24,699 nt of DNA, from positions 1-24,699 of IMG/VR virus record IMGVR_UViG_3300025828_004436; one strand, given 5' to 3'. This DNA is from a virus. Positions 789 through 24,030 of this stretch are shown here, one piece after another. Both the position numbers and the translations under genes were made by a program. The notes below the pieces were generated by a model. The model searched no databases and was not told where the DNA came from. It saw only the letters and a program-made list of their open reading frames with translations. Numbering within the stretch: position 1 is the first letter of the stretch; the number at the start of each line of letters is the position of its first letter.

Positions 789-3452
789 ATGAGTTACATA
801 GACGCACTATACAAGAAGGACGAGGACAGGATATACGTGGTGGAACGTGATTCCAAGAAGGGTCGCATATTCACAGAGTATGACGCCAGGTATGTTTTCT
901 ACTACCCAGACGCCCGAGGCAAGCACAGGGGCATGACCGGAGAGCCATTACAGCGAGTGGTATGCCAAACACACAAGGAATTCATAAAAGAGCAACGCAT
1001 AAGATCAAACAAGCAACTCTACGAACACGACATCAATCCTGTGTTCAGGTGCCTGGAGGAGAACTACCTGGGCAAGGAGACTCCGAAACTGAACGTGATG
1101 TTTTTTGACATTGAGGTGGACTTCGATCCAGATCGTGGTTACTCAACGACGGATGATCCGTTCATGCCCATAACTGCCATAAGTTGTTACATGAGCTGGA
1201 CGGATCAACTGGTCACACTGGCTGTGCCACCCAAGACCATCAGCATGAAGGACGCGGAGGAACTCACAAAGAGATTCGACAACACCATGCTGTTCGAGAA
1301 GGAGAAGGACATGCTGGACGCCTTCCTACAACTTGTGGAAGACGCGGACATACTTTCGGGCTGGAACTCAGAGGGTTATGATATCCCCTACACCGTGGGC
1401 AGGATACAGAAAGTTTTAAGTGGCGACGACACAAGAAGATTGTGTTTCTGGGGTGAGAAGCCCAAGAAAAGGGTGTTCGAGAAATACGGCAGGGAGCAGT
1501 TGAGCTTTGATCTAGTTGGAAGAGTGCACCTGGACTTGCTGGAACTGTACAGGAAATACACCTATGAGGAAAGACATTCATTTAGACTGGACGCCATAGG
1601 TGAACACGAACTGGGGGAGAAGAAGACTGTGTACGAGGGGTCACTAGACAACCTGTACAAGAACGATTTTGGACTTTTCATAGAATACAACAGGCAAGAC
1701 ACAGCACTGTTGGCAAAATTAGAGAAAAAATTGAAGTTCATAGAACTGGCCAATGAGATTGCACACCAAAACACGGTACTACTACAGACAACGATGGGCG
1801 CAGTTGCGGTCACAGAACAGGCCATAGTGAACGAAGCACACAGGAGAGGCATGCAGGTACCAGGCAGGAAGTACAAGAAGGAAGGTGAGGAGAATCAACC
1901 GGCCGCTGGAGCATACGTGGCAACCCCAATGAAGGGCATACATGATTGGATTGGTTCTATTGACATCAACTCACTGTATCCTAGTGTGATCCGAGCTTTG
2001 AACATGGGACCAGAGACCATTGTGGGACAGATAAGGCCTGTAATAACTTCGGCAGAGATCAACAGGGCCAAACACGCCAAGAAGTCATTTGCGGCCGCAT
2101 GGGACAGCCAATTCGGATCATGGGAGTACCAAGCAGTGATGAAACAGGACAAGGGTACGGAGATCATAGTGGACTGGGAAGACAAGACCAGTGTGCGTAT
2201 GAGTGCGGCACAACTGTATGATGTGATATTCGACGGTAACAACAAATGGATGCTCAGTGCGAACGGAACCATATTCACATACGAGTACGAGGCCATTATT
2301 CCAGGTTTGTTGAAACGTTGGTATGCAGAGAGACAGGAAATGCAACAGAAGATGCGTGACTGCGGTGACAACGAGATCGAAAGGGAGTACTGGGACAAGA
2401 GGCAATTGGTCAAAAAGATTAACCTGAACAGTCTGTATGGTGCGATTTTGAACCCAGGCTGTAGGTTCTTTGACATCAGGATAGGACAGAGTGTGACACT
2501 GACAGGTAGATGTATCACGAGGCACATGGCCAGCAAGGTGAACGAGATCGTGGCAGGCAAGTATGATCACAAAGGCGAAAGCGTGGTATATGGTGACACT
2601 GACTCGGTTTACTTCACAGCACACAAGACACTGAAAAAAGAGATCGATGAAGGTGTCATACCATGGACCAAAGAGTCAGTGGTCGCGCTGTACGATAAGA
2701 TCGCCGAGGAAGTTAACGGATCATTTAAATCATTTATGACCCGGGCATTCCATTGTCCAGGCACGCGTGGTGAGGTCATAGCGGCGGGCAGAGAACTGGT
2801 GGCCAGTAAAGGATTGTTCATAACCAAGAAGAGGTACGCGGTGCTATACTACGACAAGGAAGGCAAACGCGTGGACACCGAAGGCAAGGCGGGCAAGGTA
2901 AAAGCGATGGGTCTTGACCTAAAGAGATCAGACACCCCTGTATTCGTGCAGGACTTCCTAAGTGATCTACTCTATATGGTTCTGACGGGGAACACAGAAG
3001 CAGAAGTGCTTGAAAAAATAAGTGAATTCAGGGCAGAATTTAAATCAAGGCCAGGATGGGAGAAAGGTTCTCCCAAGAGGGCCAACAACATGACCAAGTA
3101 CACGGAAGAGGAGAACAAGAAGGGCAAGACCAACATGCCGGGACACGTGAGGGCCAGCATGAACTGGAACAGATGTAGGGAGATGTATGGTGACAAATAC
3201 TCCATGCCCATCACGGACGGTGCCAAGGTTATCGTTTGTAAACTGAAATCAAACCCGCTGGGCTACACGTCAATAGCATATCCGGTAGATGAACTGCGAA
3301 TACCAGAATGGTTCAAGGAACTGCCGTTCGATAGCGAAGCAATGGAGAGCACAATACTGGACCAGAAGATAGACAACCTTATTGGCGTATTGGATTGGGA
3401 CGTGCAGTCAACGGAAACCACGAACACGTTTAACAAACTGTTCGAATTCTAA
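789..3452 (+). CDS. 43: Family B DNA polymerase, T4 gp43 type
   Basis: The phage replicative polymerase, 887 residues (T4 gp43 is 898). Exonuclease motifs: Exo I FFDIEVDFD at 105-113 (D107, E109), Exo II GWNSEGYDIPY at 191-201 (D198), Exo III EYNRQDTALL at 299-308 (D304), so proofreading should be intact. Polymerase motifs: A SIDINSLYPSV at 390-400 (D392), B KINLNSLYGAI at 543-553, C YGDTDSVYF at 601-609 (D603, D605), followed by a TKKRYAVLYYDKEG segment. The last residues, TNTFNKLFEF, resemble the C-terminal clamp-binding peptide known for T4/RB69 polymerases. The ATG at 789 is preferred over an in-frame ATG at 744, which lies inside the upstream gene. No intein or intron interrupts it. It is followed by a methyltransferase gene and then the clamp, unlike the T4 order 43-regA-62-44-45. 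Confidence 0.97.
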   Translation: MSYIDALYKKDEDRIYVVERDSKKGRIFTEYDARYVFYYPDARGKHRGMTGEPLQRVVCQTHKEFIKEQRIRSNKQLYEHDINPVFRCLEENYLGKETPKLNVMFFDIEVDFDPDRGYSTTDDPFMPITAISCYMSWTDQLVTLAVPPKTISMKDAEELTKRFDNTMLFEKEKDMLDAFLQLVEDADILSGWNSEGYDIPYTVGRIQKVLSGDDTRRLCFWGEKPKKRVFEKYGREQLSFDLVGRVHLDLLELYRKYTYEERHSFRLDAIGEHELGEKKTVYEGSLDNLYKNDFGLFIEYNRQDTALLAKLEKKLKFIELANEIAHQNTVLLQTTMGAVAVTEQAIVNEAHRRGMQVPGRKYKKEGEENQPAAGAYVATPMKGIHDWIGSIDINSLYPSVIRALNMGPETIVGQIRPVITSAEINRAKHAKKSFAAAWDSQFGSWEYQAVMKQDKGTEIIVDWEDKTSVRMSAAQLYDVIFDGNNKWMLSANGTIFTYEYEAIIPGLLKRWYAERQEMQQKMRDCGDNEIEREYWDKRQLVKKINLNSLYGAILNPGCRFFDIRIGQSVTLTGRCITRHMASKVNEIVAGKYDHKGESVVYGDTDSVYFTAHKTLKKEIDEGVIPWTKESVVALYDKIAEEVNGSFKSFMTRAFHCPGTRGEVIAAGRELVASKGLFITKKRYAVLYYDKEGKRVDTEGKAGKVKAMGLDLKRSDTPVFVQDFLSDLLYMVLTGNTEAEVLEKISEFRAEFKSRPGWEKGSPKRANNMTKYTEEENKKGKTNMPGHVRASMNWNRCREMYGDKYSMPITDGAKVIVCKLKSNPLGYTSIAYPVDELRIPEWFKELPFDSEAMESTILDQKIDNLIGVLDWDVQSTETTNTFNKLFEF

Positions 3453-3455
3453 ATA
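3448..3455 (+). promoter_or_regulatory. Candidate T4-like late promoter box
   Basis: TCTAAATA (7 of 8 matches to the T4 late box TATAAATA) overlaps the polymerase stop codon. Counting as in T4 late promoters, transcription would start near 3461, which is the A of the next ATG. There is no TATAAT/TTGACA pair here and no Shine-Dalgarno site before 3461. One short box could be chance. Confidence 0.35.
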
Positions 3456-3460
3456 AACAT

Positions 3461-4261
3461 ATGCTGAGCATTGAAGAGATAAAACTGTTGATAGAGAAAC
3501 TTGAAAAATTGAAGGACGGTAAAGATTTTAACACAATTCTTGATCAGAATTTAAAGATCCTCAAAGATCTCGAACTGGCAGTCGATGCCAATAACAACAT
3601 GATGATCGACAGACTGGACAAAACACTTGACTGGTTCCGGAAAGATCTAGACATCAAGAGAGCAAAACCAATCATAGATAATGGATTGTACAGGATGATC
3701 CAGACCAAGATATTCCAATTCTCAAAGACTAATCTATACAATAGCCTAGAGATAGGTCCAGGCACGGGAATGTTTTCTAAGGAATTTAGGGCATGGCGAC
3801 TTAACTTCTTTTTAGATGTACTACCGGAACTTGAACAAAAAATCAGGAGAAGATTTAATCCAAGTAATCAAAAACATTTAAGATTTTACACAACCAAAGT
3901 TACCGAATGTTCAAATATACCTACGTCCAGTTGTAATTTCGTGTTCAGTTGGGACACATTTGTTTTCTTCACGCAGGCACACATTAAGCAATATCTCAAA
4001 GATATCAAGAGGGTTCTCATAGATGGTGGGTATGTTTTCATACAATATGCTGATTGCCATTATGACATAGATCTCAACTTCGCCAAGAGAGGATATTGGA
4101 ATTACAACACCAAGACCGCAATGACCAAGATCATAGAGGACGAGGGCTACGAGATCGTGGAAATGAACATGTTCAGGCCAGGCGCCAATTATGCCATATT
4201 TCGAAAGCCTGGTAAACAAAATCCTGTGGTGTACAAAGTTTCTGAAATAACACTAGACTAA
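3461..4261 (+). CDS. Class I SAM-dependent methyltransferase
   Basis: A 266-residue protein. The N-terminal 70 residues are a helical, Leu/Lys/Asp-rich region. The Rossmann methyltransferase domain follows, with motif I LEIGPGTGMFSKEF at about 96-109 and a motif IV-like strand NFVFSWDTFVFF near 158-169, then a YLKDIKRVLIDGGYVFIQYAD segment typical of small-molecule or generic methyltransferases. There is no NPPY/DPPY motif of adenine DNA methylases and no PCQ motif of cytosine-5 methylases, so the substrate is unknown. It interrupts what in T4 is the replication gene block and is more AT-rich than the polymerase and clamp around it, suggesting an acquired gene. No clear ribosome binding site precedes the ATG. 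Confidence 0.8.
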   Translation: MLSIEEIKLLIEKLEKLKDGKDFNTILDQNLKILKDLELAVDANNNMMIDRLDKTLDWFRKDLDIKRAKPIIDNGLYRMIQTKIFQFSKTNLYNSLEIGPGTGMFSKEFRAWRLNFFLDVLPELEQKIRRRFNPSNQKHLRFYTTKVTECSNIPTSSCNFVFSWDTFVFFTQAHIKQYLKDIKRVLIDGGYVFIQYADCHYDIDLNFAKRGYWNYNTKTAMTKIIEDEGYEIVEMNMFRPGANYAIFRKPGKQNPVVYKVSEITLD

Positions 4262-4291: not shown

Positions 4292-5029
4292 ATGATAGAC
4301 ATCTTAAAAGACATCGTTAAACACACGCATGGATTGGGATTCTTGGATCTGGTCAAGATCACTGGGGACGATAAGGAGACAACAATCGACTCAATGGCCG
4401 AGGACAGATCTGTGATCCTGCAGGGGTCTTTCCACAAACCACAACCGGAGATGACGGGTACGTTCGGTATGCCACAGATGGGCAAACTGGACATCCACCT
4501 GAAATGTCCGGAGTACAAGGAGAAGGCGAACATAACAGTGTTGTCCGGTGAGAGAAACGGCGCAACGGTTCCAACGGGCATCCATTTCGAGAACGAAAAG
4601 GGTGACTTCAAGAACGACTACAGGTTCATGAACGCCGAGATCATCAACGAGAAACTTAAGACGGTCAAGTTCAAGGGCGTCAAGTGGGACGTTGAGATCG
4701 AACCTTCAGTGGCGAGTGTGCAGAGATTCAACTTCCAGGCCACAGCAAACACAGAACACAATTCATTCGTCGTGAGGACGGAAGATGGAAATCTGGTATT
4801 CACCTTCGGTGACCAAGCGTCACATGGTGGTGAGTTCGTTTTCGCAACCGACGTTAAGGGCACACTTAACAAGGGTTGGAGTTGGCCGGTGGGGCAGGTG
4901 TTACAGATACTTAAACTTTCTGATTCAGCCAAGGTCACATTACACTTCTCAAACGAGGGTGCGATGATGGTCTCTGTTGATTCGGGACTGGGCAAGTACC
5001 AGTACATTATACCAGCACAGGCGCAATAA
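4292..5029 (+). CDS. 45: DNA polymerase sliding clamp, gp45/PCNA type
   Basis: A 245-residue protein (T4 gp45 is 228). It has no enzymatic motif; the pattern is alternating beta strands and two amphipathic helices typical of DNA clamps. The C-terminal repeat (DSAKVTLHFSNEGAMMVSVDS, ending KYQYIIPAQAQ) resembles the last strands of PCNA-like clamps, where a final strand ends in a YYLAP-type tail. As a trimeric ring it would tether polymerase and, in T4, late transcription factors to DNA. Gene context supports the call: polymerase lies just upstream, with only a methyltransferase between. Its stop overlaps the ATG of the DpdA-like gene (TAATG), so clamp and transglycosylase are likely co-translated. 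The clamp-loader genes 44/62 are not in this window. Confidence 0.78.
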   Translation: MIDILKDIVKHTHGLGFLDLVKITGDDKETTIDSMAEDRSVILQGSFHKPQPEMTGTFGMPQMGKLDIHLKCPEYKEKANITVLSGERNGATVPTGIHFENEKGDFKNDYRFMNAEIINEKLKTVKFKGVKWDVEIEPSVASVQRFNFQATANTEHNSFVVRTEDGNLVFTFGDQASHGGEFVFATDVKGTLNKGWSWPVGQVLQILKLSDSAKVTLHFSNEGAMMVSVDSGLGKYQYIIPAQAQ

Positions 5030-6477
5030 TGACGACGGATAATAGTAAGCAGGAACACTTAGGGGAGTTGAGCAGAGACTTCGCAGTGTTCTTGCCTGCT
5101 ATATCTAACTTCTACAACACGTTTATCAGCAAACAGAGAGTATCAGAGGGCAAACACATATCAGAAGAACGAATCCCCAAAGGTTTTGAGAATGGTGTGG
5201 AAGGATTGAACTTCCTTAACCCTGAACAGGGCATGTTCACATATCCCACAGCACTGTACTCGGCGGGACACGCCTGTTTAGACATGGATAAAGTGGGCGA
5301 CAGGGATCACATGTTCGTGAACAGAGATAGAAAATTCAGCACCATAGTGGGAGATTCAGGTGGATATCAAATCGGAAAAGGTGTAATAAAATTTGACTGG
5401 AAAGATTTCGAGGGCAACAAGGCAAACAAAGTTAGAAGCGATATTCTAAATTGGCTAGAACTCACTAGCGATTGGGCGATGACCCTAGACGTGCCCACAT
5501 GGGCGGCGGATGATCTGAACTCACCAAAGACCGGACTGACTAGTTTCCAAGACACACTAGACGGCACGATATACAACAACAAGTTCTTCCAAAAGAACAG
5601 ATTGGGACAGACCAAACTATTGAACGTGCTACAGGGTGATGACTGGAACACAGCACAGATATGGTATGACGCTGTCAAAGACTTCGAATTCGAGGGCTGG
5701 GCCATGGGTGGCATCAACATGTGTGACATGGAAGTCATGCTCAAACGCTTGATCATAATGAGAGATGAGAAGAAATTAGACGGCAAGGACTGGATGCACG
5801 TACTGGGCACATCACAGATGGATTGGGCCTGTTATCTAACACAGGTACAGAGACAGGTCAGGAAACTGATCAACCCCAACTTCACTATAAGTTTTGATTC
5901 AGCGTCGGCTTTCCTATCAACAGCGAACGGATTGGTGTACACACATAACTCATTCACTCCAGATAGATGGTCCTTCGTTATGGACAAGGCTCCAGATGAC
6001 AAGAGATTGAAAGGATCAAAAATACAGTTTCCGTTTGATAGCGGAATAGGTCGTAGGTTAAACATGGGCGATGTTTGTTACTACGGTGAGAATGATCTCA
6101 ACAAGAATGGCAAGGTCGGTGCAACCAGTTGGGACAGTTTCAGTTATGTGCTGATGATGGCCCATAACGTGTACAACCAGATCAGGGCCATACAGATCGC
6201 AAACGATCTCAATGACATAGAATCTTTGAAACACAGACCAGAAGTCAAACACTGGCGTAAAACTAAAGCAAGTGACAAGACAGATGAACCTAGCATTTAT
6301 GTACCAAGGAACATACTATATTTTAACACCTTTGTTGAAGAAGTATTCACATCGGAGAAGCCAATGGATGTTATCGCAAGTGCATCGAGTTACCTAGCAG
6401 ACATCAGGGGCAACAGATGGGCCAGGGCAACAGGTGGTGGCAAGGGCACAAACAATTTCAGTTCTTTATTCGAATAG
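5029..6477 (+). CDS. dpdA: DpdA-like DNA 7-deazaguanine transglycosylase (TGT superfamily)
   Basis: A 482-residue TIM-barrel transglycosylase. TGT-type landmarks in order: GDSGGYQI at 108-115 (D109 equals the Asp in the SDSGGFQ motif of bacterial TGT), LDVP at 153-156, LQGDD at 201-205 (VQGG region), AMGGIN at 225-230 (IGGL region), HVLGTS at 257-262, and FDSAS at 289-293 with D290 in the place of the TGT nucleophile. The CxCxxC zinc motif of tRNA TGTs is not seen. DpdA enzymes swap guanine in DNA for preQ0, and phage forms occur with preQ0 genes; here FolE, QueE, a QueD-like candidate and a YhhQ transporter lie downstream, which favours DNA over tRNA as substrate. The gene overlaps the clamp stop. 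The C-terminus, TNNFSSLFE, matches the polymerase clamp-binding tail (TNTFNKLFEF) and may bind the clamp. Confidence 0.85.
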   Translation: MTTDNSKQEHLGELSRDFAVFLPAISNFYNTFISKQRVSEGKHISEERIPKGFENGVEGLNFLNPEQGMFTYPTALYSAGHACLDMDKVGDRDHMFVNRDRKFSTIVGDSGGYQIGKGVIKFDWKDFEGNKANKVRSDILNWLELTSDWAMTLDVPTWAADDLNSPKTGLTSFQDTLDGTIYNNKFFQKNRLGQTKLLNVLQGDDWNTAQIWYDAVKDFEFEGWAMGGINMCDMEVMLKRLIIMRDEKKLDGKDWMHVLGTSQMDWACYLTQVQRQVRKLINPNFTISFDSASAFLSTANGLVYTHNSFTPDRWSFVMDKAPDDKRLKGSKIQFPFDSGIGRRLNMGDVCYYGENDLNKNGKVGATSWDSFSYVLMMAHNVYNQIRAIQIANDLNDIESLKHRPEVKHWRKTKASDKTDEPSIYVPRNILYFNTFVEEVFTSEKPMDVIASASSYLADIRGNRWARATGGGKGTNNFSSLFE

Positions 6478-6487
6478 GAGGACAAAA

Positions 6488-6691
6488 ATGGTAACAAAAA
6501 GAAAGAAAAGCAAGAAACTCAAGAAACTTGAGGATGAGCATCAGTATCTCGACAAGAAAGTAGCACAACTTACCAAGGACAGGCTCAAGGACAGGAGTTC
6601 CGAGAGCAAAGAAGTTCTTACCAGATTGAAGAGGACCAAGTTGATGATCAAGGACGCCATAGCCAGAGCAAAAGCAACGTTGACAAGATAG
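6488..6691 (+). CDS. YdcH/DUF465-like small coiled-coil protein
   Basis: A 67-residue protein: a Lys-rich N-terminus (KRKKSKKLKKLEDEH) followed by a two-helix hairpin with the H-x-x-L-D-x-K-V pattern and a second helix LTRLKRTKLMIKDAIAR, as in the YdcH (DUF465) family. The family has no firm function. The start is set by a strong AGGAG at about 6477-6481, just after the dpdA stop; an in-frame upstream extension to 6434 lies within dpdA and is rejected. The promoter for the next operon lies across its last codons and the gap that follows. Confidence 0.65.
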   Translation: MVTKRKKSKKLKKLEDEHQYLDKKVAQLTKDRLKDRSSESKEVLTRLKRTKLMIKDAIARAKATLTR

Positions 6692-6708
6692 CCAACGCAT
6701 AGTATAAT
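6680..6708 (+). promoter_or_regulatory. Perfect consensus sigma-70 promoter; predicted leaderless start
   Basis: TTGACA at 6680-6685 and TATAAT at 6703-6708 with a 17-base spacer match the bacterial consensus at all 12 positions. The expected transcription start (seven bases after the -10) is 6715, exactly the A of the next ATG. There is no Shine-Dalgarno site between the -10 and the ATG. The -35 lies inside the end of the YdcH-like gene. Confidence 0.75.
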
Positions 6709-6714
6709 AAAAAC

Positions 6715-7266
6715 ATGGACAGAGATTACAAGACAGGCAAGAGTGAGAGTGTAGGTGTTTTTTCAGGCATCGAGATAGAACATACACCCGCGTATGGACT
6801 ACAGACCTTGTTCCTTGCCAGGAATGATCTAACACTGGAGCAGATCACGGAATTGGCCGAGATGGTCAATGCCAAGGCCGTCTACTACGGTGCCAATAGA
6901 TCATTCATGTACAATCACGGACTACAACTCTCACAGATGATGAATCTGATGGACGCAGGATATTACGTGACCATAGACTATCCGCACAGTCTACACGAAG
7001 AAGTCAAGAAAAGATTCGGGTTGGTGTGGAAAAACGAGAAGTTTATACCTTTCTGTTCCATAATATTCCCAAATTCCGAGGACGACGATCAACTGTGTAT
7101 AAAGGTTGATGATGTTGATTTCAACAAGACCAATCCCGGTGTGTGGAGTATGAGCATGAACCACTTCAAACAAACAGCGGGATTCACATCATGGAAGGAA
7201 TACAAACAAGATCAACCAATACAGGAGAACAAATGGATACTGAGCAACAGCACGATCAAGCACTAA
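6715..7266 (+). CDS. Conserved phage protein of unknown function
   Basis: A 183-residue soluble protein that opens the long operon to 15099. Visible features: an IEIEHTPAYGLQTLFLAR strand near residues 19-36, a helical stretch EQITELAEMVNAKAVYYG, a YYVTIDYPHSL segment and an acidic DDDQLCIKVDDVDF segment near 122-135. I recognise no catalytic motif, and only two Cys are present. It directly precedes and overlaps the QueD-like candidate by 34 bases, so the two are probably coupled; a partner role in pterin or deazaguanine chemistry is possible but unproven. The start has no Shine-Dalgarno site and coincides with the predicted transcription start, so translation would be leaderless. Confidence 0.72.
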   Translation: MDRDYKTGKSESVGVFSGIEIEHTPAYGLQTLFLARNDLTLEQITELAEMVNAKAVYYGANRSFMYNHGLQLSQMMNLMDAGYYVTIDYPHSLHEEVKKRFGLVWKNEKFIPFCSIIFPNSEDDDQLCIKVDDVDFNKTNPGVWSMSMNHFKQTAGFTSWKEYKQDQPIQENKWILSNSTIKH

Positions 7267-7658
7267 AAGAACAAGCCAACAAGGCCAGCAAGATGATATG
7301 GGTAACATTCCGTAAGGAAGGTATCCACAAGTATCCTGCGGCACTGGACGATCCCAAACTGGCCACAGGCGATGAGTATGATGTCTCATTCCTGGGACAC
7401 CCACACAGGCACATATTCCACTTCAAGGTAGCGATAGAGGTGTTCCATGATGACAGGGACATCGAGTTTATACAGTTCAAGAGATGGATGGAGAACATGT
7501 ACGCGGATGGCACGATGAAGTTAGATTACAAATCCTGTGAGATGATATCAGATGATCTATATGTTGCGATAGCGAAAAGATATCCAGGCAGACGGATCGA
7601 GATAGATGTCGCCGAGGATGGGGAGAACGGATCACACGCGGTATATGAAAGAGATTAG
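7233..7658 (+). CDS. QueD/6-pyruvoyl-tetrahydropterin synthase-like T-fold protein (candidate)
   Basis: A 141-residue protein with a layout like QueD/PTPS: a His in a strand (FRKEGIHKYPAA, H32), an HPHRH cluster at 56-60 leading into a strand (IFHFKVAIEV), then IEFIQFKRW at 77-85 (compare the VIDFxxLK segment), KSCEMISDDL at 100-109 (compare PTSENLA), and a final strand VAEDGENGS at 126-134 (compare the VxET strand). H32 and two of the HPHRH histidines could bind zinc. The catalytic Cys expected between the two His sites is absent; the only Cys is C102. QueD makes 6-carboxytetrahydropterin between FolE and QueE, both encoded in this window. The ATG at 7233 has AGGAG at 7223-7227; ATG 7293 (MIWVTF) is an alternative. 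It might instead be a T-fold protein with another role. Confidence 0.4.
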   Translation: MDTEQQHDQALKEQANKASKMIWVTFRKEGIHKYPAALDDPKLATGDEYDVSFLGHPHRHIFHFKVAIEVFHDDRDIEFIQFKRWMENMYADGTMKLDYKSCEMISDDLYVAIAKRYPGRRIEIDVAEDGENGSHAVYERD

Positions 7659-7965
7659 CATAAAAGAAAAGAGAGCCACAACCAGACAGGGATACCTACC
7701 CGTGGAGGGCGGTGGACTTAACGCTTCGTACTCCACAGTGGACGCGGTGGCTAACATATGCGCCACGGCGGGAAATTTGGGTATGAAGTACGGTAAGGAT
7801 TTCATCTGGTCACACACGGACTACGATGACAACATGGACGAGTGCATCAATCTGTTGGTGAAGGAAGACAAGTACGAAACATTCCTGCACCTGACCCTAC
7901 AGAACGAACACAGGATCAAACACACAACAAAGGGCAAAATAAAACTCACAAAGGAGAGAAGATAA
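7645..7965 (+). CDS. Small protein of unknown function
   Basis: A 106-residue protein starting at an ATG that overlaps the end of the QueD-like gene by 14 bases; the upstream in-frame start at 7606 is deep in that gene and less likely. The N-terminus is basic (KEISIKEKRATTRQG), followed by a Gly-rich loop and a helix (YSTVDAVANICATAGNLG), an acidic stretch (TDYDDNMDECINLL) and a Lys-rich tail. I recognise no family. Its tight coupling to the two genes before it and to the peroxiredoxin after it (the next ATG follows the stop directly) puts it firmly in the operon. Confidence 0.62.
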   Translation: MKEISIKEKRATTRQGYLPVEGGGLNASYSTVDAVANICATAGNLGMKYGKDFIWSHTDYDDNMDECINLLVKEDKYETFLHLTLQNEHRIKHTTKGKIKLTKERR

Positions 7966-8535
7966 ATGAGAGTACCATACACAAATTTCAAAACCCGGAC
8001 GGGCGATAATGATGCCGTAGGCGGTTGCACGTTCATAGGAGGCGAATGGAAGGAAGTGGACACGACGGAGATATTTGACAATAAGAAAGTCGTTGTTTTC
8101 GCATTACCAGGAGCATTCACTCCAACTTGTAGTTCACAACAACTACCAGGATACGAAGAGAAATACGACGAGCTTAAAGCACTGGGCATAGACGAAGTAT
8201 ATTGCCTGTCAGTTAACGATGCGTTCGTAATGAACGCTTGGTTCAGGGACGAAAAGATCGAGAAGGTCAAACCAATAGGAGACGGAGAAGGCGTGTTCAC
8301 ACAAGGAATGGGCATGTTGGTCAACAAACCAAAACAGGGCTTTGGCATGAGATCATGGAGATATTCGATGCTGGTGGACAACGGAGAGGTCGTGAAAACC
8401 TTTGTTGAGGAAGGCAAGAACAATGCCAGCGACGACAACGATCCGTTTGAAGTGTCAGACGTGGACACTATGATTGATTACCTTAAAAGTCAATCTATTA
8501 CTAACACAGCGAAAGTGGAAGAAACGGTATCATAG
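7966..8535 (+). CDS. Peroxiredoxin, type II / Prx5 group
   Basis: A 189-residue thioredoxin-fold peroxidase. The signature PGAFTPTCSSQQLPGYEE lies at 48-65 with peroxidatic C55; C80 in VYCLSVNDAFVMNAW is placed like the second Cys of type II peroxiredoxins and could form the disulfide. The enzyme reduces hydrogen peroxide or alkyl hydroperoxides using host thioredoxin or glutaredoxin. The N-terminus is short and cytosolic, without a signal peptide; the C-terminus has a 25-residue Asp/Thr-rich extension past the domain. AGGAGAG just before the stop of the upstream gene serves as ribosome binding site. Found in a phage, it is an auxiliary metabolic gene that may protect the infected cell, or its oxygen-sensitive radical SAM enzymes, from oxidation (inference). 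Confidence 0.92.
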   Translation: MRVPYTNFKTRTGDNDAVGGCTFIGGEWKEVDTTEIFDNKKVVVFALPGAFTPTCSSQQLPGYEEKYDELKALGIDEVYCLSVNDAFVMNAWFRDEKIEKVKPIGDGEGVFTQGMGMLVNKPKQGFGMRSWRYSMLVDNGEVVKTFVEEGKNNASDDNDPFEVSDVDTMIDYLKSQSITNTAKVEETVS

Positions 8536-8537
8536 TA

Positions 8538-8723
8538 ATGAGTTGGGACGGCAAATCCAGACCCAGCAACAACAAGTACCGTAGCAACTGGGATGATATT
8601 TTCAAGAAGAAGAGTTGTCCCTGTGGCAGATCCCCCACTGGTAAGTGTATAGGCTGGCATGGATTGACAGAAGAACAATATCAAGTTAAACTAGCAGAGT
8701 GGAAAGAAAAGAATGCTGATTAG
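8538..8723 (+). CDS. Small Cys-rich, probable zinc-binding protein
   Basis: A 61-residue protein with C27, C29 and C37 followed by H41 (KSCPCGRSPTGKCIGWHGL), a spacing that could hold one zinc ion. The rest is charged and helical at the C-terminus (EEQYQVKLAEWKEK). Short proteins with a CPCG..GKCxGWHGL core look familiar from marine phages, but I cannot give a function. It begins two bases after the peroxiredoxin stop and its end overlaps the next gene by 11 bases. Confidence 0.6.
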   Translation: MSWDGKSRPSNNKYRSNWDDIFKKKSCPCGRSPTGKCIGWHGLTEEQYQVKLAEWKEKNAD

Positions 8724-9018
8724 ACTAATCTTCGAACCAGAACCCAACGTAAACGTTAACCATGACAGGATGTTCGATTACTATTCAGAAAATTACCTCA
8801 GCGACTTCAACACCACATGGGGTGGAACGATCGTAATGGATAACTTTGAGAAGAAGCATTTCAAACAAGAGCCATGCTATCAAAGGTACATTCCTAGTAA
8901 TCAAGGCACACAAGAAATGTTAGATAACATACTAGACTATCTAAATACTAATCCAATGGCAGGCTATCATACGCATGTCTACATTAGCAAAGGCGGAAAT
9001 GAAGAAAAGGTTAGATAA
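8713..9018 (+). CDS. Hypothetical protein
   Basis: A 101-residue protein of unknown family. It starts inside the end of the Cys-rich gene (GGAAAG at about 8700 as a weak ribosome site). It is rich in Asn, Tyr and Asp, with one Cys and no membrane segment; a YHTHVYISKGG strand closes the C-terminus. Base composition shifts to AT-rich from here through the radical SAM gene, so this gene probably entered together with it. Confidence 0.58.
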   Translation: MLIRLIFEPEPNVNVNHDRMFDYYSENYLSDFNTTWGGTIVMDNFEKKHFKQEPCYQRYIPSNQGTQEMLDNILDYLNTNPMAGYHTHVYISKGGNEEKVR

Positions 9019-9023
9019 TTTAG

Positions 9024-10169
9024 ATGTCACGACGGGTATTAGATAAAAATTTCTGTGTCATACCATGGACTGGGTTTGAAGTGGAGCCCGATGGTGGTGT
9101 CAAGAACTGTATCATTAGCAAAGACACAATAGGGAATCTCAATAACGAAAGCATCCAAGACATAATAAAAAAAAATACTCCCATAAAAAAGCAGATGATG
9201 GAGGGAGAGTTTCCAAACAGTTGTAGTGGATGTTACCTACATGAGAAACACAGAATCAAGGATTTTGCTTCTATAAGCAGTAGATTGTACTATGCCAAAG
9301 AAGTCACTCCTCACATTTCTAAAGATCTACTAGAAGATCCTGAAAACTTTGAACTTCGACACGTTGATGTGAGATGGTCTAATAAGTGTAACTATGCCTG
9401 TGTATATTGTAGTCCACTCTATAGTAGTAAATGGGAAACAGAATTAGGCATGAAGCCAAAGAAGAATTCAAACAATAATCTTAAAGAATATCTTTATTCC
9501 AATATTAAACGGCTTAAAAACGTTTATCTTGCAGGTGGCGAGCCTATGCTCATGAAACAAAACAAAGAGTTCCTTGAACTACTTTTGAAAGATAATCCAG
9601 AGGTGCACATTAGAGTCAACACAAACCTTAGTAAAACAACAACCGGGGTATTTGATCTTTTATGCCAATTCAAAAATGTACACTGGACAATTAGTGTGGA
9701 ATCCATAGAGGATGAGTTTGAGTACATCAGATTCAATGGGGTTTGGAAGGACTTTCTCGACAATCTCAAGATCATTCGGAATATCAAGGATCATAAGATA
9801 TCATTCAACATGCTGTACTTTATATTGAACTACAAATCAATATTCAACACAATAGAACTTCTTCAATCAATGGGTTTCCATAACAACAGTTTTGTACTAG
9901 GTCCATTATACACTCCAGAGTCTCTGAATATCTTAAACTTACCAGCCAAAATACTTGATACGTGCAAAGCTCTTTTTAAAGAGCAGATAGATAAAAAACC
10001 AGGATTTCTTTTGCAGAACAGTTACGAAAATGTACTTTCTTATTTGACTGAAACAGAATTTCATGCTAATATAGAAAGTACTAGACAGAGATTAAAAACT
10101 ATGGATCTAAGAAGAAATAACAACAGCAGGACAATATTTCCTAAATTATATGAAGAGGTATTAAATTGA
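9024..10169 (+). CDS. Radical SAM protein with N-terminal SPASM/twitch-like Cys region
   Basis: A 381-residue protein. The radical SAM cluster motif is CNYACVYC (C122, C126, C129), after a WSNK strand and followed by the usual VYLAGGEPMLM Gly-Glu motif near 172-182. Unusually, an Fe-S-type Cys region precedes it: C11 (FCVIPWTGFEVEPDG), C29, C67 and C70 (NSCSGCYLHEK), as in twitch/SPASM auxiliary-cluster domains placed at the N-terminus. Such proteins modify peptides or sugars; the substrate here is unknown. The next gene, a glycosyltransferase, starts at a TTG inside its stop (TTGA). The DNA is AT-rich with a run of nine A at 9167-9175 that keeps frame. It likely forms one unit with the glycosyltransferase. 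Confidence 0.85.
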   Translation: MSRRVLDKNFCVIPWTGFEVEPDGGVKNCIISKDTIGNLNNESIQDIIKKNTPIKKQMMEGEFPNSCSGCYLHEKHRIKDFASISSRLYYAKEVTPHISKDLLEDPENFELRHVDVRWSNKCNYACVYCSPLYSSKWETELGMKPKKNSNNNLKEYLYSNIKRLKNVYLAGGEPMLMKQNKEFLELLLKDNPEVHIRVNTNLSKTTTGVFDLLCQFKNVHWTISVESIEDEFEYIRFNGVWKDFLDNLKIIRNIKDHKISFNMLYFILNYKSIFNTIELLQSMGFHNNSFVLGPLYTPESLNILNLPAKILDTCKALFKEQIDKKPGFLLQNSYENVLSYLTETEFHANIESTRQRLKTMDLRRNNNSRTIFPKLYEEVLN

Positions 10170-11335
10170 AAATATTTTACATGGGTCTAGAGCCCTACGA
10201 AGGCAGATACACACTACAGTTACAGGATTGGACGGAGAGAGCATACAAGAAAAGAGGAATAGATTATGTCGTTGTTCCAGGTACTACAATCGATGACACC
10301 AAGGCTATTAGTGTTGGACAGGTGCTAGACGCACATGGCAGAAGTTATTTTGGCATGAGTCAGATGATGAACCTGGTACAGATGATGAGGAACGGTGAGG
10401 TCACCAATAAGGACATCATATTCTTTGAAGACATGTTTCAACCGGGCATGGAATCTCTTCCATACATATTGAACCAAGTCGAAGACAAACATAGACCCAC
10501 CATATACCTGAGATGTTTGGCGCAGGCTATAGATCCTGATGACTTTGTACACGTTTGGGGCATGAGCAAGTGGATGAGCATGTATGAACAGATGTGTAAT
10601 GAGATTCCTAACGTGAACATATTGGCTACGAATGAGGAGATGGTGGCACACATGAGGATAGCCAACTGGTCGGCTCCCATATACAACATATCAGGCCTGA
10701 GCTTCGGCAAGGAAGAGGTAAGGAGTAGAGTTGAAAATATCAAGCCATTCTTTGAACGTAAGATGAGGGTAATATTTGGTGCGAGGTGGGATCAAGAGAA
10801 ACAACCACAATTCTTCATGGATCTAGCAACAAAATTTAAAGAAACACATCCAGATGTTGAATTTGCGATATGCCAAGGGGGTCCTTTGAGATCTAACAAT
10901 CAATTCTATGTGGACGAGGCCAAACACCTAGCCAAAGAAGGCATACTGACCATACACGAGAACTTGAAGAAGAATGAGTACTACGAGATACTAGCTGATT
11001 CGAGGGTGATGTTCAACTGTGCGTTACAGGACTGGGTGTCAAACACAGTCAGTGAAGCAGACTCACTTGGATGTAATACATTGTTCCCAGCATACAGATC
11101 ATTTCCAGAGACTTTCGCAAATGACCACACAAGACTATATGTTCCATGGTCACAACAGGACGCCATGAATAAACTGGAAACGCTATTAAGCAAACCATCC
11201 CCTAGTATAGGCAAGATATCCGATTGGACCAACGGTACCATAGACAGGATGATTGACATTATGACAGGCAAGGGAGAACAATGGAGAAGAGATGGACAAC
11301 ACTACAGAACACCAGTATCAGAATCCAAGTATTAA
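10166..11335 (+). CDS. GT-B fold glycosyltransferase
   Basis: A 389-residue protein. The N-terminal half has a strand MKIFYMGLEP and a DIIFFEDMFQPG segment; the C-terminal nucleotide-sugar domain starts near 198 with MRVIFGARWDQEKQPQFF (the usual G-R-x-x-x-x-K site appears as ARWDQEKQ), then HPDVEFAICQGG, a YYEILADSRVMFNCA helix-strand unit and SEADSLGCNTLFPAY, matching the E-x-x-x-x-G-x-P element of GT4-like enzymes. The sugar and acceptor are unknown: virion protein, DNA base or a host surface polymer are all possible. It starts at TTG with GAGG seven bases or so upstream, overlapping the radical SAM stop by four bases. GalE follows and overlaps it, which suggests UDP-galactose as donor (inference). 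Confidence 0.72.
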   Translation: MKIFYMGLEPYEGRYTLQLQDWTERAYKKRGIDYVVVPGTTIDDTKAISVGQVLDAHGRSYFGMSQMMNLVQMMRNGEVTNKDIIFFEDMFQPGMESLPYILNQVEDKHRPTIYLRCLAQAIDPDDFVHVWGMSKWMSMYEQMCNEIPNVNILATNEEMVAHMRIANWSAPIYNISGLSFGKEEVRSRVENIKPFFERKMRVIFGARWDQEKQPQFFMDLATKFKETHPDVEFAICQGGPLRSNNQFYVDEAKHLAKEGILTIHENLKKNEYYEILADSRVMFNCALQDWVSNTVSEADSLGCNTLFPAYRSFPETFANDHTRLYVPWSQQDAMNKLETLLSKPSPSIGKISDWTNGTIDRMIDIMTGKGEQWRRDGQHYRTPVSESKY

Positions 11336-12323
11336 GGGCGTGAGCAAAGCCGTTCTGGTTACTGGCGGAGCCGGATACGTGGGCTCTCATACCTGTAAAC
11401 TGCTGGCAAAGAACGGATACACACCCATCACGGTGGACAGGCACTACAGAGAAAACCTTAAAACATACGGACCAACACATAACCTTCAACTGCCACAAGA
11501 GATGGATAGGCTTGATGAAATTATAAAAAGGTATAATATTACATCTTGTATACACTTCGCTGGTAGCACCAGCGTGCCAGAGAGCGTGTCCAACCCATCA
11601 TTGTACTACAAGAACAATTTCATCGTCACAGTGTCACTGCTGGACAAACTGATCGAGTGTGGCGTCAAGACATTCGTGTACAGTTCCAGCGCGGCCACCT
11701 ATGGTGATCCCGGAATGAAACTGTGCCGGGAGTCAGACCCCGCCAATCCCATCAGTGCCTACGGTGCCAGCAAACTCATGATGGAGATGCTGTGCAGGGA
11801 CTACCTGAGGGCATACGGATTGAGCAGTGTGGGACTGAGATACTTCAACGCCGCCGGTGCCGACCCAGAGGGTGAAGTGGGAGAACTGCGTGAAAAAGAG
11901 ACTCACATCATACCGTTGGCCATAGACGCCGCGAGGCAAGGTCGCACATTCAAGATATTTGGAGACCAGTACCCAACAGAGGACGGAACCTGTGTGAGAG
12001 ACTACGTCCATGTGATGGATCTGGCGGACGCACACATCAAGGCATTGAACTACGCCGCTGACAATCAAGTCGCAGAGGTGTTTAATCTGGGATCCGGTGC
12101 GCCTGCTTCTAACAAGCAATTGGTAGAAACAGTTCAGAAATACACCGGGGAGATGAACATAGAGATGCATGAGAACAGGCCCGGAGATCCAGCATACCTA
12201 GTGGCGGACATCACAAAGGTAAAGGCGACATTAGGATGGGAGCCCACGCAGAGTTCCATTGACAACGTGGTGTCTACTGCTGTACAATGGTATAACAACA
12301 CACACAAGAAGGAAATACAATGA
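11292..12323 (+). CDS. galE: UDP-glucose 4-epimerase
   Basis: A 343-residue extended short-chain dehydrogenase. NAD-binding GGAGYVGSH at 25-33, IHFAGSTSVPES at about 88-99, the Ser of YSSSAATYG at 130-138, catalytic YGASK at 157-161 and the LRYFNAAGADPEGEVGE segment are all as in GalE, which interconverts UDP-glucose and UDP-galactose. The ATG at 11292 has GGAG at 11283-11286 and overlaps the glycosyltransferase by 44 bases; a GTG at 11340, just after that gene's stop, would give a start closer to the usual GalE length and cannot be ruled out. Length is near the usual 338. It likely supplies the sugar for the adjacent glycosyltransferase. Confidence 0.93.
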   Translation: MDNTTEHQYQNPSIKGVSKAVLVTGGAGYVGSHTCKLLAKNGYTPITVDRHYRENLKTYGPTHNLQLPQEMDRLDEIIKRYNITSCIHFAGSTSVPESVSNPSLYYKNNFIVTVSLLDKLIECGVKTFVYSSSAATYGDPGMKLCRESDPANPISAYGASKLMMEMLCRDYLRAYGLSSVGLRYFNAAGADPEGEVGELREKETHIIPLAIDAARQGRTFKIFGDQYPTEDGTCVRDYVHVMDLADAHIKALNYAADNQVAEVFNLGSGAPASNKQLVETVQKYTGEMNIEMHENRPGDPAYLVADITKVKATLGWEPTQSSIDNVVSTAVQWYNNTHKKEIQ

Positions 12324-13033
12324 GTGAGGACATTTTGAAGGACAGTTGGATGCCGGACGAGGCAGTCAGCAAGAGGATCAGGGACAGGATCAAGAAAGCG
12401 GGTAAGAGATTCCACGCAAATGACAACATAGCAGAATACATAGAGGATGGTGAGATTGATGAATTACAGGCAGAGGTGCAGGAGAAATTACAGGGTGTGT
12501 TGGACAGCCTCGTGATAGACACAGAAAACGATCACAATACGCAGGAGACAGCAAAGCGTGTGGCCAAGATGTACATCAGAGAAACATTCGGTGGTAGATT
12601 CAAACCAATGCCGAGGGTCACAAGTTTCCCCAACATGGGTTACAAAAGCATGTACACGTCTGGACCAATATCAATAAGATCGACATGTGCGCATCATTTC
12701 CAGAACATCGTGGGCAAGGCCTGGGTTGGTATCATCCCCAACGGTGAGGTCATTGGACTAAGCAAGTTCAATAGGATCGTACACCACATAGTGGAGAGAC
12801 CACAGATACAGGAAGAGATGACCACACAAATTGCTGAAGAATTGAAGAAGTACGCTAAGACTGAGAACATAGCGGTAGTGGTAAAAGCAGAACACCATTG
12901 TATGACACACAGGGGTGTCAGAGAGCATGAATCAGACATGACCACAGCGATAATGTTGGGTGCGTTCAAAGACGACCCGGCCACAAGGGACGAATTCTAC
13001 AAGATCTGCATGAGCATGAAGGGTCATGGATAA
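12320..13033 (+). CDS. folE: GTP cyclohydrolase I
   Basis: A 237-residue enzyme turning GTP into 7,8-dihydroneopterin triphosphate, the first step of both folate and 7-deazaguanine (preQ0) synthesis. Zinc ligands are C123 and H126 in STCAHHF and C194 in EHHCMTHRG. The IPNGEVIGLSKFNRI and ERPQIQEEMTTQI segments are standard. The N-terminal 60 residues are a charged, helical extension. The RGVREHESDMTT segment matches the family's RGV region. It overlaps the galE stop (ATGA), so is coupled. With dpdA, queE and the YhhQ transporter nearby, a role in preQ0 supply is more likely than folate. Confidence 0.95.
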   Translation: MSEDILKDSWMPDEAVSKRIRDRIKKAGKRFHANDNIAEYIEDGEIDELQAEVQEKLQGVLDSLVIDTENDHNTQETAKRVAKMYIRETFGGRFKPMPRVTSFPNMGYKSMYTSGPISIRSTCAHHFQNIVGKAWVGIIPNGEVIGLSKFNRIVHHIVERPQIQEEMTTQIAEELKKYAKTENIAVVVKAEHHCMTHRGVREHESDMTTAIMLGAFKDDPATRDEFYKICMSMKGHG

Positions 13034-13280
13034 GAAAAAGAAAACAACATTGACCTCAGACGGCATATACACCATTGACGACTGGAGCATGGGTGCCACT
13101 AACGTGGGTTCAGTGATAGACACTGCCACAGTTGATTTTGGCGACATTGGAAATTTGCAGATGGATTTCGATTATGATCGGAATCTCCGAGACAAGTACC
13201 CGGCACTGAAGGACGCGTGGGATCACTACAACAACGTCAAGAAGATGTGTGAGGCAAAGGAGCAAGAAGATGAGAATTAA
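13026..13280 (+). CDS. Small acidic phage protein of unknown function
   Basis: An 84-residue protein: basic first residues (MDKKKK), an acidic central region with many Asp, and a C-terminal helix (RDKYPALKDAWDHYNNVKKMCEAKEQEDE). I recognise no family beyond a general likeness to short T4-like phage proteins with a KYPAL..AW..Y helix. AAGGG at about 13018-13022 is a ribosome site. It overlaps folE by 8 bases and guaC by 11. Confidence 0.65.
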   Translation: MDKKKKTTLTSDGIYTIDDWSMGATNVGSVIDTATVDFGDIGNLQMDFDYDRNLRDKYPALKDAWDHYNNVKKMCEAKEQEDEN

Positions 13281-15106: not shown

Positions 15107-15122
15107 GTTGTGTTGACACAAC
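15107..15122 (+). promoter_or_regulatory. Perfect inverted repeat over the -35 box: candidate operator
   Basis: GTTGTGT-TG-ACACAAC has two perfect 7-base arms around a TG centre, and the -35 TTGACA of the yhhQ promoter lies inside it. A repressor bound here would block polymerase. A similar palindrome sits on the promoter at 24050. Confidence 0.45.
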
Positions 15123-15142
15123 AATCAAAAAACTGTTAAAAT
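15113..15142 (+). promoter_or_regulatory. Promoter for the YhhQ-family transporter
   Basis: TTGACA at 15113-15118 and TAAAAT at 15137-15142 with an 18-base spacer. Predicted start near 15149 leaves a 26-base leader with AAGGAGG at 15164-15170. The leader is too short for a preQ1 riboswitch. The -35 is covered by the inverted repeat at 15107-15122. Confidence 0.65.
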
Positions 15143-15174
15143 ACGGGACATTAAACAAACCTTAAGGAGGATTA

Positions 15175-15825
15175 ATGTTTAAATCACTACTAGCAGGTGT
15201 TGACAAGACACTTGTAAGAAATCTAGTTATTCTACACACACTGGTTATTGCTGTGTCGAACTATCTAGTCACGATCAGATTTGATCTGTTCCCTGGTGCG
15301 GACCTTCCGTTGTTCGGATCGTTCCCATTAGCGGCGGCGGCATTCACATTTCCGATCGTAGTAGTCGCAACTGACTTGACTGTCAGGTTGGTCGGCAAAG
15401 AAGCGGGAAGGGCCGTCGTAGCGATGGCGATCATTCCGGCAATCGTGGCATCGGTACTCGTGCTGTTGGCACTGGGTGACCCACACGCATACAGGGTGGG
15501 ATTCGCATCTGGTACGGCATACGCGATCGGTACCATGCTTGACGTGTACGTTTTCCAAGCCATCAGAGAAAGATCTGACAATTGGTGGGCGGCACCGGCA
15601 CTTTCAACCATCGCGGCGAACATAATCGACACGTACTCGTTCTTTTATGTGGCGTTCGCGGGATCGTTGGATGCTGAGGGCAACCTATCGTGGATTGGTG
15701 CAAACTGGCACGTGGTTGCGCAGAACAACACCCTGACCAAGATCGTGGTCGGTCTGATAGTGTTCCTACCAGCGTATGGAATACTGTTGAACAGACTGCA
15801 AGTCATAGGCAAGAAGAAAAAATAG
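15175..15825 (+). CDS. yhhQ: Queuosine precursor transporter, YhhQ/QPTR family
   Basis: A 216-residue inner-membrane protein with six predicted helices near 16-34, 50-73, 81-101, 109-130, 141-165 and 186-207. Family landmarks include VSNYLVTIRFDLF near the first helix, FTFPIVVVATDLTVRLVGKEAGR at 58-80 and ANIIDTYSFFYVAFAGS at 149-165, where conserved Asp and polar residues line the path. E. coli YhhQ imports preQ0 and preQ1. The phage gene would feed preQ0 to the DpdA-like enzyme or replace the QueC step missing from this window. It has its own promoter with operator-like repeat and an ideal ribosome site, so may be expressed separately and strongly. Confidence 0.88.
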   Translation: MFKSLLAGVDKTLVRNLVILHTLVIAVSNYLVTIRFDLFPGADLPLFGSFPLAAAAFTFPIVVVATDLTVRLVGKEAGRAVVAMAIIPAIVASVLVLLALGDPHAYRVGFASGTAYAIGTMLDVYVFQAIRERSDNWWAAPALSTIAANIIDTYSFFYVAFAGSLDAEGNLSWIGANWHVVAQNNTLTKIVVGLIVFLPAYGILLNRLQVIGKKKK

Positions 15826-17724: not shown

Positions 17725-18644
17725 GACCCATTCAAATAATATACGCCCCAGGCATGTTTGGAAAATGTGTGCGTTGGATGTTTGATAGATTCACTGATGG
17801 TTCAAATTTTGCAGGTATACAATCACCATGGGACGAAGATAATCGGGTGCACGGCTTTGTTAAGAGTAACTCATATAACCAAAAATTTAAAGCGTCGCAC
17901 CAGCTCAGTGCTGGAGAAGAATCATACCCCGATCCGAGTGCCTACAAAGTAGTGCTTAGTTTTGATAAAAGTGATCTGCTTTTTGCAGAACGTTGTGGAT
18001 TTTACAGGAACTCAGGATGTGAAACTGAAAAAAAAAGATACAAACATATTATAGACCGTGCCGACGCATCTTTTGTCAAGGAATCATTTGGCAACGTGCT
18101 ATCTGAAAAAAGTGTTGCAAAAGAACTTCTCAAAATACAGTTCCATGACATGAAAAAACATGCATGGTGGAATGCCATGGAAAAGTTTATGAAAGATGAC
18201 AAACATCACCAGTTTAACTCCAACTCGCTATGGGATCATTACAGCCTAAAAACTGAATTAGTTAAAGTGTCAGAAAGATACGACTTGGACTTAAAGATAG
18301 ATGAAAAGGTCATAAACAATGTCGTAGAAAAGGTCAAAGAATCATATCCAGTCATGACCAGAAAAAGAGCACACCATGTGCTGGATGCCATCCGCACTAA
18401 CACCAATATCACATGTGATGGTCTAGATATCGTAGAACAAGCATACATCGAAACTGAATTAGAAAAAATACATGATTGTGTACTTTTTCCATACGGATCA
18501 AATTGGTTCAAAGACACTGACCAAATTAACGAATTTTTAGATACATACCCTTCATATCTTAAACATATGAATCCAAGGTTACCATGGTACAACAATATAA
18601 AAAATCCTTTCTACCTTACAGGTAAGATTGACGAATCTAATTAA
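17712..18644 (+). CDS. Unknown protein with N-terminal GMFG motif
   Basis: A 310-residue protein. It starts with a hydrophobic strand and turn (IQIIYAPGMFGKCVRWMF), which recalls the start of P-loop sulfotransferase-type folds but is too weak to name. The rest is helical and charged, with few Cys and no membrane helix. ATG 17712 or the ATG at 17721, which overlaps the previous stop (ATGA), may be the start; the second gives the natural N-terminus MRPIQIIYAPG. The DNA is AT-rich. A second protein at 22760 starts with a similar strand-GMFG element. It ends the cupin/amidinotransferase operon, just ahead of the queE promoter. Confidence 0.62.
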   Translation: MEKMRPIQIIYAPGMFGKCVRWMFDRFTDGSNFAGIQSPWDEDNRVHGFVKSNSYNQKFKASHQLSAGEESYPDPSAYKVVLSFDKSDLLFAERCGFYRNSGCETEKKRYKHIIDRADASFVKESFGNVLSEKSVAKELLKIQFHDMKKHAWWNAMEKFMKDDKHHQFNSNSLWDHYSLKTELVKVSERYDLDLKIDEKVINNVVEKVKESYPVMTRKRAHHVLDAIRTNTNITCDGLDIVEQAYIETELEKIHDCVLFPYGSNWFKDTDQINEFLDTYPSYLKHMNPRLPWYNNIKNPFYLTGKIDESN

Positions 18645-18656
18645 ATCTATTATAAT
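18628..18656 (+). promoter_or_regulatory. Promoter for queE; predicted leaderless start
   Basis: TTGACG at 18628-18633 and TATAAT at 18651-18656 with a 17-base spacer. The predicted transcription start (18663, plus or minus one) falls on the queE ATG at 18662. No Shine-Dalgarno site is present. The -35 lies in the end of the upstream gene. Confidence 0.7.
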
Positions 18657-19550: not shown

Positions 19551-19579
19551 TAGACACAAAGGTAAAAATAAAGTATAAT
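19551..19579 (+). promoter_or_regulatory. Promoter for the RNase H operon; predicted leaderless start
   Basis: TAGACA at 19551-19556 and TATAAT at 19574-19579 with a 17-base spacer. The predicted start is 19586, exactly the A of the ATG. No Shine-Dalgarno site is visible. Confidence 0.65.
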
Positions 19580-23621: not shown

Positions 23622-23629
23622 GTTAAATA
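23622..23629 (+). promoter_or_regulatory. Candidate T4-like late promoter box
   Basis: GTTAAATA (6 of 8 to TATAAATA) lies six bases before the ATG at 23635, so a T4-style late start would coincide with the start codon, as at 3448. No Shine-Dalgarno site lies between. Short and possibly chance. Confidence 0.3.
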
Positions 23630-23634
23630 GCAGT

Positions 23635-24030
23635 ATGGATCGCAAGACCGCATACACACGCACCTTCATGGAACTGTTACAACAACCAATCCATGACGAG
23701 AGCATCAAGACCAACTACTACACCTGGTGGCAGAACGTTAGGGAAAGTTACCAGGCCAGATCACTGCGTCTCACCAAACAGGGACTGGAGATGTTGGAGA
23801 ATCTGGACATCAAGACCTATGACATCAAATTTCCAGCAAAAGTCATATTCACCCCTCAGACCTATCTTTGGTTGGACGAGTTCGTTGACTGTCCCTACTA
23901 CGTGGACAAGAAACACATCAAAGTTACCATGGAGAAAATGGCACTACAACTGATGCTTTTTGCTGGAGACATCACAAAATACGGGCTCGCACGTGCTATG
24001 AGCAAGATGGACGAGCAAAAAAGCCAGTAA
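23635..24030 (+). CDS. Conserved T4-like phage protein of unknown function
   Basis: A 131-residue helical protein: an aromatic N-terminal half (NYYTWWQNVRESYQARSLRLTKQGLEML), a strand DIKTYDIKFP, then LWLDEFVDCPYYVDKKHIKV and a long helix TMEKMALQLMLFAGDITKYGLARAM. The QGLEML...YDIKFP...LWLD.F..CPYY pattern looks familiar from marine T4-like phages; no function is known to me. It may be transcribed late from the TAAATA box just before it. It is followed by a regulated-looking promoter for an AAA+ ATPase. Confidence 0.7.
   Translation: MDRKTAYTRTFMELLQQPIHDESIKTNYYTWWQNVRESYQARSLRLTKQGLEMLENLDIKTYDIKFPAKVIFTPQTYLWLDEFVDCPYYVDKKHIKVTMEKMALQLMLFAGDITKYGLARAMSKMDEQKSQ

Follow-up and report, generated by a model that had tools for sequence, protein, structure and literature searches.

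What does it mean when a perfect promoter ends a few nucleotides before the start codon of a gene that has no Shine-Dalgarno (SD) site? We address this question in a DNA window of 24,699 nucleotides, the full IMG/VR virus record IMGVR_UViG_3300025828_004436. Its source is a T4-type marine phage, judging by its proteins, which have matches in phage families including QueE, exonuclease and peroxiredoxin; a search with the window DNA found the closest matches among isolates in cyanophages, HTVC008M and rhizobial phages. The locus in question comprises a promoter of the host sigma-70 type at 6680-6708 and the gene that begins at ATG 6715. We find it very probable that this promoter sits on the start codon such that a leaderless mRNA would result, and that the locus is one case of a design found throughout the phage lineage.

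The promoter and its start codon

The locus consists of the following features:

6488..6691, + strand: upstream DUF465-like open reading frame (ORF) of 67 amino acids (Pfam PF04325, E-value 5.6e-07), whose 3' end holds the -35 box
6680..6685, + strand: -35 hexamer TTGACA, which doubles as Leu-Thr codons of the upstream DUF465-like ORF
6703..6708, + strand: -10 hexamer TATAAT, after a spacer of 17 nucleotides
6709..6714, + strand: discriminator AAAAAC, with a pyrimidine at -1; the expected +1 is the A of ATG 6715
6715..7266, + strand: first gene past the promoter, encoding 183 amino acids and conserved from M1

The promoter matches the consensus at 12 of 12 positions, and six nucleotides lie between the end of the -10 hexamer and ATG 6715. 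With spacers of 15-19 nucleotides a perfect consensus is expected by chance 0.03 times per window and was observed twice; no shuffled window contained two perfect matches. The coordinates, the full match and this low expectation confirm the observation, in an earlier, preliminary description of the window, of a perfect consensus promoter whose expected +1 falls on ATG 6715, and its statement that the gene lacks an SD site likewise stands, the 25 nucleotides upstream of ATG 6715 being devoid of SD-like sequence. This ATG is, on the evidence of the reading frame, the sole usable start codon: an in-frame TAG at 6700-6702 excludes a start further upstream. The assignment is considered correct because in-frame upstream stops occur at all the loci compared below, where the first in-frame event upstream of the ATG is always a stop and not a start, and because the protein is conserved from M1.

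For the first 50 nucleotides of the predicted message, folding is no stronger than in shuffled sequences (z 0.62), with the 5' seven nucleotides unpaired. At the 5' end, codon dominance exceeds that elsewhere (0.80 versus 0.63), though only four codons could be scored. The 183-residue protein has no match in Pfam, PHROG or NCBIfam, and its AlphaFold model, with a mean predicted local distance difference test (pLDDT) score of 60.6, is too weak to interpret.

Conservation of the promoter and its spacing

A search with the 183-residue protein recovered 48 relatives in IMG/VR, giving 49 loci with the window. The arrangement TTGACA-16/17-TATAAT and ATG as the start codon are kept in all 49, with a spacer of 17 nucleotides in 45 and 16 in the remaining 4, and a gap from the -10 hexamer to the ATG of 5 nucleotides in 24 loci and 6 in 25. 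The 25 nucleotides before the ATG lack SD-like sequence in 47 of the 48 relatives; the sole exception is an AAGGA 1-2 nucleotides from the ATG, too near to act as an SD site, so that no close relative has a workable one. Further, the TTG and ACA codons that constitute the -35 box are invariant in 36 of 36 distinct sequences. Elsewhere in the DUF465-like ORF, Leu and Thr codons vary; by this comparison, the box is synonymously frozen within the upstream gene. A possible operator or hairpin over the -35 box was also considered by eye (a near-palindrome CGTTGAC-N6-GCCAACG in the window and TTGAC-N6-GTCAA in some relatives), and was dropped since many relatives lack it.

A profile search for more distant relatives, which reached down to 55% identity (55-67% identical), yielded 13 further distinct upstream sequences, 11 of which carry a perfect promoter 5-7 nucleotides from the ATG; the two exceptions have TAAAAT as the -10 hexamer (L516) or a degraded -10 hexamer (L501). 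The very distant homologues in Pseudomonas phage PA5oct and Acidovorax phage ACP17 (about 30-35% identical) lie within other operons and have no such promoter. In ACP17 (L523, 1501-1588) homology to the 6715 protein continues past the annotated start of gp122, in the upstream direction, as far as an ATG overlapping the folE stop (TAATG), which suggests that the annotated start may lie too far downstream.

The upstream neighborhood raises the possibility that the promoter is real, but that the 6715 gene is mainly translated from read-through transcripts by re-initiation after the DUF465 stop 24 nucleotides upstream, its own transcripts being secondary. In line with this, three genes that precede the promoter (a clamp-like gene, the 5029 gene and the DUF465 gene) run in the same direction and keep their synteny in 46 of 46 loci, and no terminator was called on the + strand near 6691-6715. 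However, there is no SD site near the ATG for re-initiation, and the distant relatives L500, L502, L512 and L514 keep the promoter though their preceding 60 nucleotides, compared by eye, do not resemble the coding end of DUF465. Hence, we regard translation mainly from read-through as quite improbable. The 5029 gene itself (5029-6477; 482 amino acids) is without a match in Pfam, PHROG or NCBIfam; on visual inspection it displays a GDSGGYQ motif like that of tRNA-guanine transglycosylases.

Leaderless-type and leadered promoters across the lineage

We surveyed promoters with at least 10 of 12 consensus matches in the window and the related contigs fetched for comparison (15 sequences, 1.34 Mb). 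In this set, 88 promoters sit 5-7 nucleotides before an ATG, 61 of them at exactly 6, against 1, 4 and 1 for permuted-hexamer controls; a second peak of gaps is seen at 20-36 nucleotides. The two classes differ in their ribosome sites: SD-like sequence precedes the ATG in 0/88 cases at 5-7 nucleotides versus 56/72 at 20-36, although the stretch tested at the short gap consists largely of the promoter, the 25-nucleotide test at the 6715 loci being more informative for that gene.

These counts also bear on whether the 6715 promoter is a consensus match that precedes an ATG by mere chance. Sigma-70-like matches of at least 9/12 are indeed not enriched across the window (43 found, 37 expected); yet the low expectation for a perfect match, the conservation and synonymous freezing, and the excess over 1-4 control hits all contradict such an origin. 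Chance is refuted chiefly by the conservation of the promoter, and we consider it hardly credible.

When the genes are clustered, 27 families have at least one leaderless-type site. The geometry is leaderless in 15/15 cases for the 6715 gene, 12/12 for the family of the gene at 19586 and 8/8 for a family of 106-residue proteins; conversely, a leader is present for folE in 10/10, for the queuosine-precursor transporter in 12/12 and for an AAA-like gene in all 14 contigs. At position -1 a pyrimidine is present in 48 of 57 distinct leaderless sites of gap 5 or 6, compared to 9 of 44 leadered sites; the former therefore show the pyrimidine-purine pattern that would be expected if transcription began at the A of the ATG. 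The proposal that the first message is leaderless is thus supported by the gap of 5-6 nucleotides, the absent SD site and the preceding pyrimidine, all of them properties of the DNA, and the suggestion that the spacing is selected is borne out by its retention in every locus, the frozen -35 box and the initiator-like pyrimidine.

Outside the lineage, we compared IMG/VR contigs with a perfect promoter and an ATG at set distances; as the sample was picked by those spacings, the fractions are comparable while the counts are not. Among the matches listed, an ORF of at least 50 amino acids follows in 101/166 (61%) at 5-7 nucleotides, against 27/123 (22%) at 1-3 and 35/129 (27%) at 9-11. By this measure, the leaderless-type layout is common among uncultivated phages. 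In 100 kb of Rhizobium phage RHph_I1_18 no ATG has a strong sigma-70 match nearby, so that this phage is uninformative for the leaderless class.

Late-type boxes share the layout

The same geometry is seen at a second kind of element, a T4-late-like NTAAATA box, two instances of which are found in the window:

3449..3463, + strand: late-type box CTAAATA, 5 nucleotides to ATG 3461; orthologues in several contigs are arranged alike
23623..23637, + strand: late-type box TTAAATA, 5 nucleotides to ATG 23635

Across the lineage NTAAATA peaks 5-6 nucleotides before ATGs; at 4-8 nucleotides the first base is C in 33 cases, T in 44, A in 85 and G in 15, whereas three scrambled controls gave 0-1 (a fourth, AATAAAT, overlaps with the motif, so that it is no independent control). 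The box genes of one contig (G019) encode baseplate, tail-fibre, virion and spanin proteins, in addition to radical SAM and unknown proteins. Among isolates we compared one each of T4, Syn9 and HTVC008M, the first two as partial genomes. The cultured Pelagibacter phage HTVC008M has 16 genes with such boxes, mostly at exactly 5 nucleotides, several of them annotated as tail, baseplate or head, and its annotation includes a late sigma factor. T4 has no TAAATA boxes 4-8 nucleotides before an ATG in the 99 kb examined, and most boxes in a 50-kb late region of Syn9 lie 20-36 nucleotides upstream. We infer that the TAAATA boxes may function as late promoters.

These findings bear on the preliminary suggestion that the leaderless start is a timing device, selected for a special moment of operon expression. 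The steadiness of leader status within families, be they leaderless (the 6715 and 19586 genes) or leadered (folE and the transporter), could be taken in its favor. However, leaderless geometry is found at both sigma-70-type promoters and the TAAATA boxes of tail, baseplate, head and spanin genes, and does not mark a single temporal class. Moreover, the orthologues of the cupin gene (15908 in the window, and those in G001, G002, G004, G006, G009, G010, G012 and G013) shift between gaps of 6-12 nucleotides without an SD site and 20-25 nucleotides with an SD-like site. Since the layout is common to early-type and late-type boxes, the timing device is unlikely, and the suggestion is not supported in that form; the placing of promoters on start codons seems to be customary in this lineage and not a device for timing a single operon.

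A proposed mechanism

We propose that the host RNA polymerase would start at, or at most one nucleotide from, the A of ATG 6715, and that the 5'-terminal AUG of the message would recruit the ribosome in the absence of an SD site. The later genes of the cluster would be reached through overlap coupling or from promoters of their own. At the level of the lineage, many sigma-70 (early-type) and TAAATA (late-type) promoters 4-8 nucleotides before an ATG would work in this manner, with folE, the queuosine-precursor transporter and the AAA-like gene instead retaining an SD-bearing leader of 20-36 nucleotides. One consequence could be that read-through messages, in which ATG 6715 is internal and has no SD site, are poorly translated, making translation of the gene dependent on its own promoter. 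The promoter, its conserved spacing, the absent SD site, the correct start codon, the two promoter classes and the pyrimidine-purine signature are read directly from the sequences; initiation by 70S ribosomes at a 5'-AUG, use of the host polymerase and the exact +1 are the parts that we infer.

Several points weigh against this interpretation. The 5' end at ATG 6715 is predicted from the gap and the pyrimidine-purine signature, and at a 5-nucleotide gap a polymerase starting 1-2 bases off could produce a leader of 1-3 nucleotides or lose the AUG in some transcripts. Gene starts were assigned by a simple ORF caller and SD sites by pattern match, and the consensus is that of sigma-70 in general rather than that of the host's own sigma factor. 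Finally, the compared contigs share ancestry, and their counts are accordingly not independent.

A further explanation is that the host generally translates mRNAs without SD sites, as do leaderless-rich alphaproteobacteria, and that the layout reflects neutral genome compaction that the host tolerates, and not selection for regulation. For instance, 171 leaderless start sites have been mapped in Sinorhizobium meliloti (PMC3616915), and the late-type layout is seen in HTVC008M, a phage of Pelagibacter, but not in the half of the T4 genome or the region of Syn9 that were examined. On the other hand, certain genes of the same genomes retain a leader with a strong SD site in every relative scored. 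In four Pelagibacteraceae genomes, TATAAT lies 5-7 nucleotides from an ATG 533 times versus 462 (9-11) and 481 (12-14), an excess of only about 10-15%. Neutral compaction is a serious possibility, though we would give it less than an even chance. We are more doubtful of a general leaderless regime, in which early and late promoters on start codons would be combined with genes silent in read-through RNA and possible changes to initiation factors of the phage or host, as proposed for Thermus phage phiYS40.

The gene cluster and other promoters of the window

Several further promoters are present in the window:

12259..12288, + strand: internal promoter TTGACA-18-TACAAT, with a 31-nucleotide leader containing AGAAGGAAA, before folE ATG 12320
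15113..15177, + strand: promoter TTGACA-18-TAAAAT with a leader and AAGGAGG, upstream of the queuosine-precursor transporter gene, ATG 15175
15856-15885: second perfect-consensus promoter, with a 22-nucleotide leader containing AGGAAGG, before the cupin gene, ATG 15908
18628..18656, + strand: second leaderless-type promoter TTGACG-17-TATAAT, 5 nucleotides to ATG 18662 of the QueE-like gene
19551..19579, + strand: third leaderless-type promoter TAGACA-17-TATAAT, 6 nucleotides to ATG 19586 of a 108-residue protein gene

That the other promoters of the window have normal leaders, as initially described, holds for those at 192, 12259, 15113, 15856 and 24050, which have leaders with SD-like sites, but not for those at 18628 and 19551. 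Gene 18662 matches the QueE PHROG at 1.6e-54, and its geometry is leaderless in 4 of 9 scored contigs.

The operon of 14 genes in that description is partly upheld: 14 co-directed ORFs span 6715-15099, and no + strand terminator was called among them. A single unit nevertheless breaks down because of the conserved internal promoter before folE, which is present and leadered in 10 of 10 scored contigs; in some relatives the orthologue of gene 10166 is preceded by an additional leaderless-type promoter. The cluster therefore likely comprises at least two transcription units, as predicted from these promoters.

The spacer of the cupin promoter holds a late-promoter-like ATCTAAATAC, and a CTAAATA-type box is likewise found in the orthologous spacers of several relatives (e.g., G001, G004, G007 and G013), pointing to a possible overlapping early/late promoter. 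The cupin orthologues form a natural pair for comparing leaderless and leadered expression. The genes for GTP cyclohydrolase (12320-13033), GMP reductase (13273-14319), the queuosine-precursor transporter (15175-15825) and the QueE-like protein (18662-19549) are grouped in the window, pointing to a putative role of 7-deazaguanine and guanine-nucleotide metabolism in the phage.

Comparison with known systems

Leaderless phage mRNAs are already established from lambda cI and phiYS40. Kasugamycin spares the translation of leaderless messages (PMC5230787). In the literature searched, which comprised open-licence papers only, we found no report of a T4-type marine phage in which leaderless starts extend across a lineage and to both classes of promoter; this is weak evidence of novelty. 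If true for this marine lineage, and for the late-type boxes of HTVC008M, gene-start annotation, promoter prediction and models of ribosome competition by phages would need adjusting.

The lambda cI message made from PRM begins at its AUG. Like the 6715 gene, cI has a sigma-70 promoter with exactly 6 nucleotides from the -10 hexamer to the ATG in the lambda sequence examined; unlike it, cI is a single regulatory gene behind a weak, activated promoter, whereas here a perfect consensus is used and many genes are concerned. In phiYS40 most middle and late mRNAs are leaderless (PMC3594737). That phage belongs to a different group, with the phenomenon confined to middle and late genes and accompanied by changes in initiation factors IF2 and IF3, while here both early-type and late-type boxes are affected. 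Leaderless genes of Deinococcus-Thermus have a TANNNT motif a few nucleotides before the start codon that acts as the -10 element (PMC12340547). These are bacterial chromosomes with a -10 motif alone, in contrast to the full -35 and -10 elements found here in a phage.

T4-type phages are, by the textbook, expected to have leaders with SD sites. The early promoters of T4 resemble those described here in that the host sigma-70 polymerase is used in a T4-type phage; they differ in that strong matches are mostly 25-44 nucleotides before the ATG and accompanied by an SD site, with 1 of 14 at 5-7 nucleotides (99 kb). The late promoters of T4 and cyanophages have the forms TATAAATA and NATAAATA (PMC2984593). 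The TAAATA box of the TATAAATA type before late genes is shared with the present lineage, but its placement is not: T4 has none at 4-8 nucleotides and Syn9 has most at 20-36, whereas here the boxes peak 5-6 nucleotides before the start codon.
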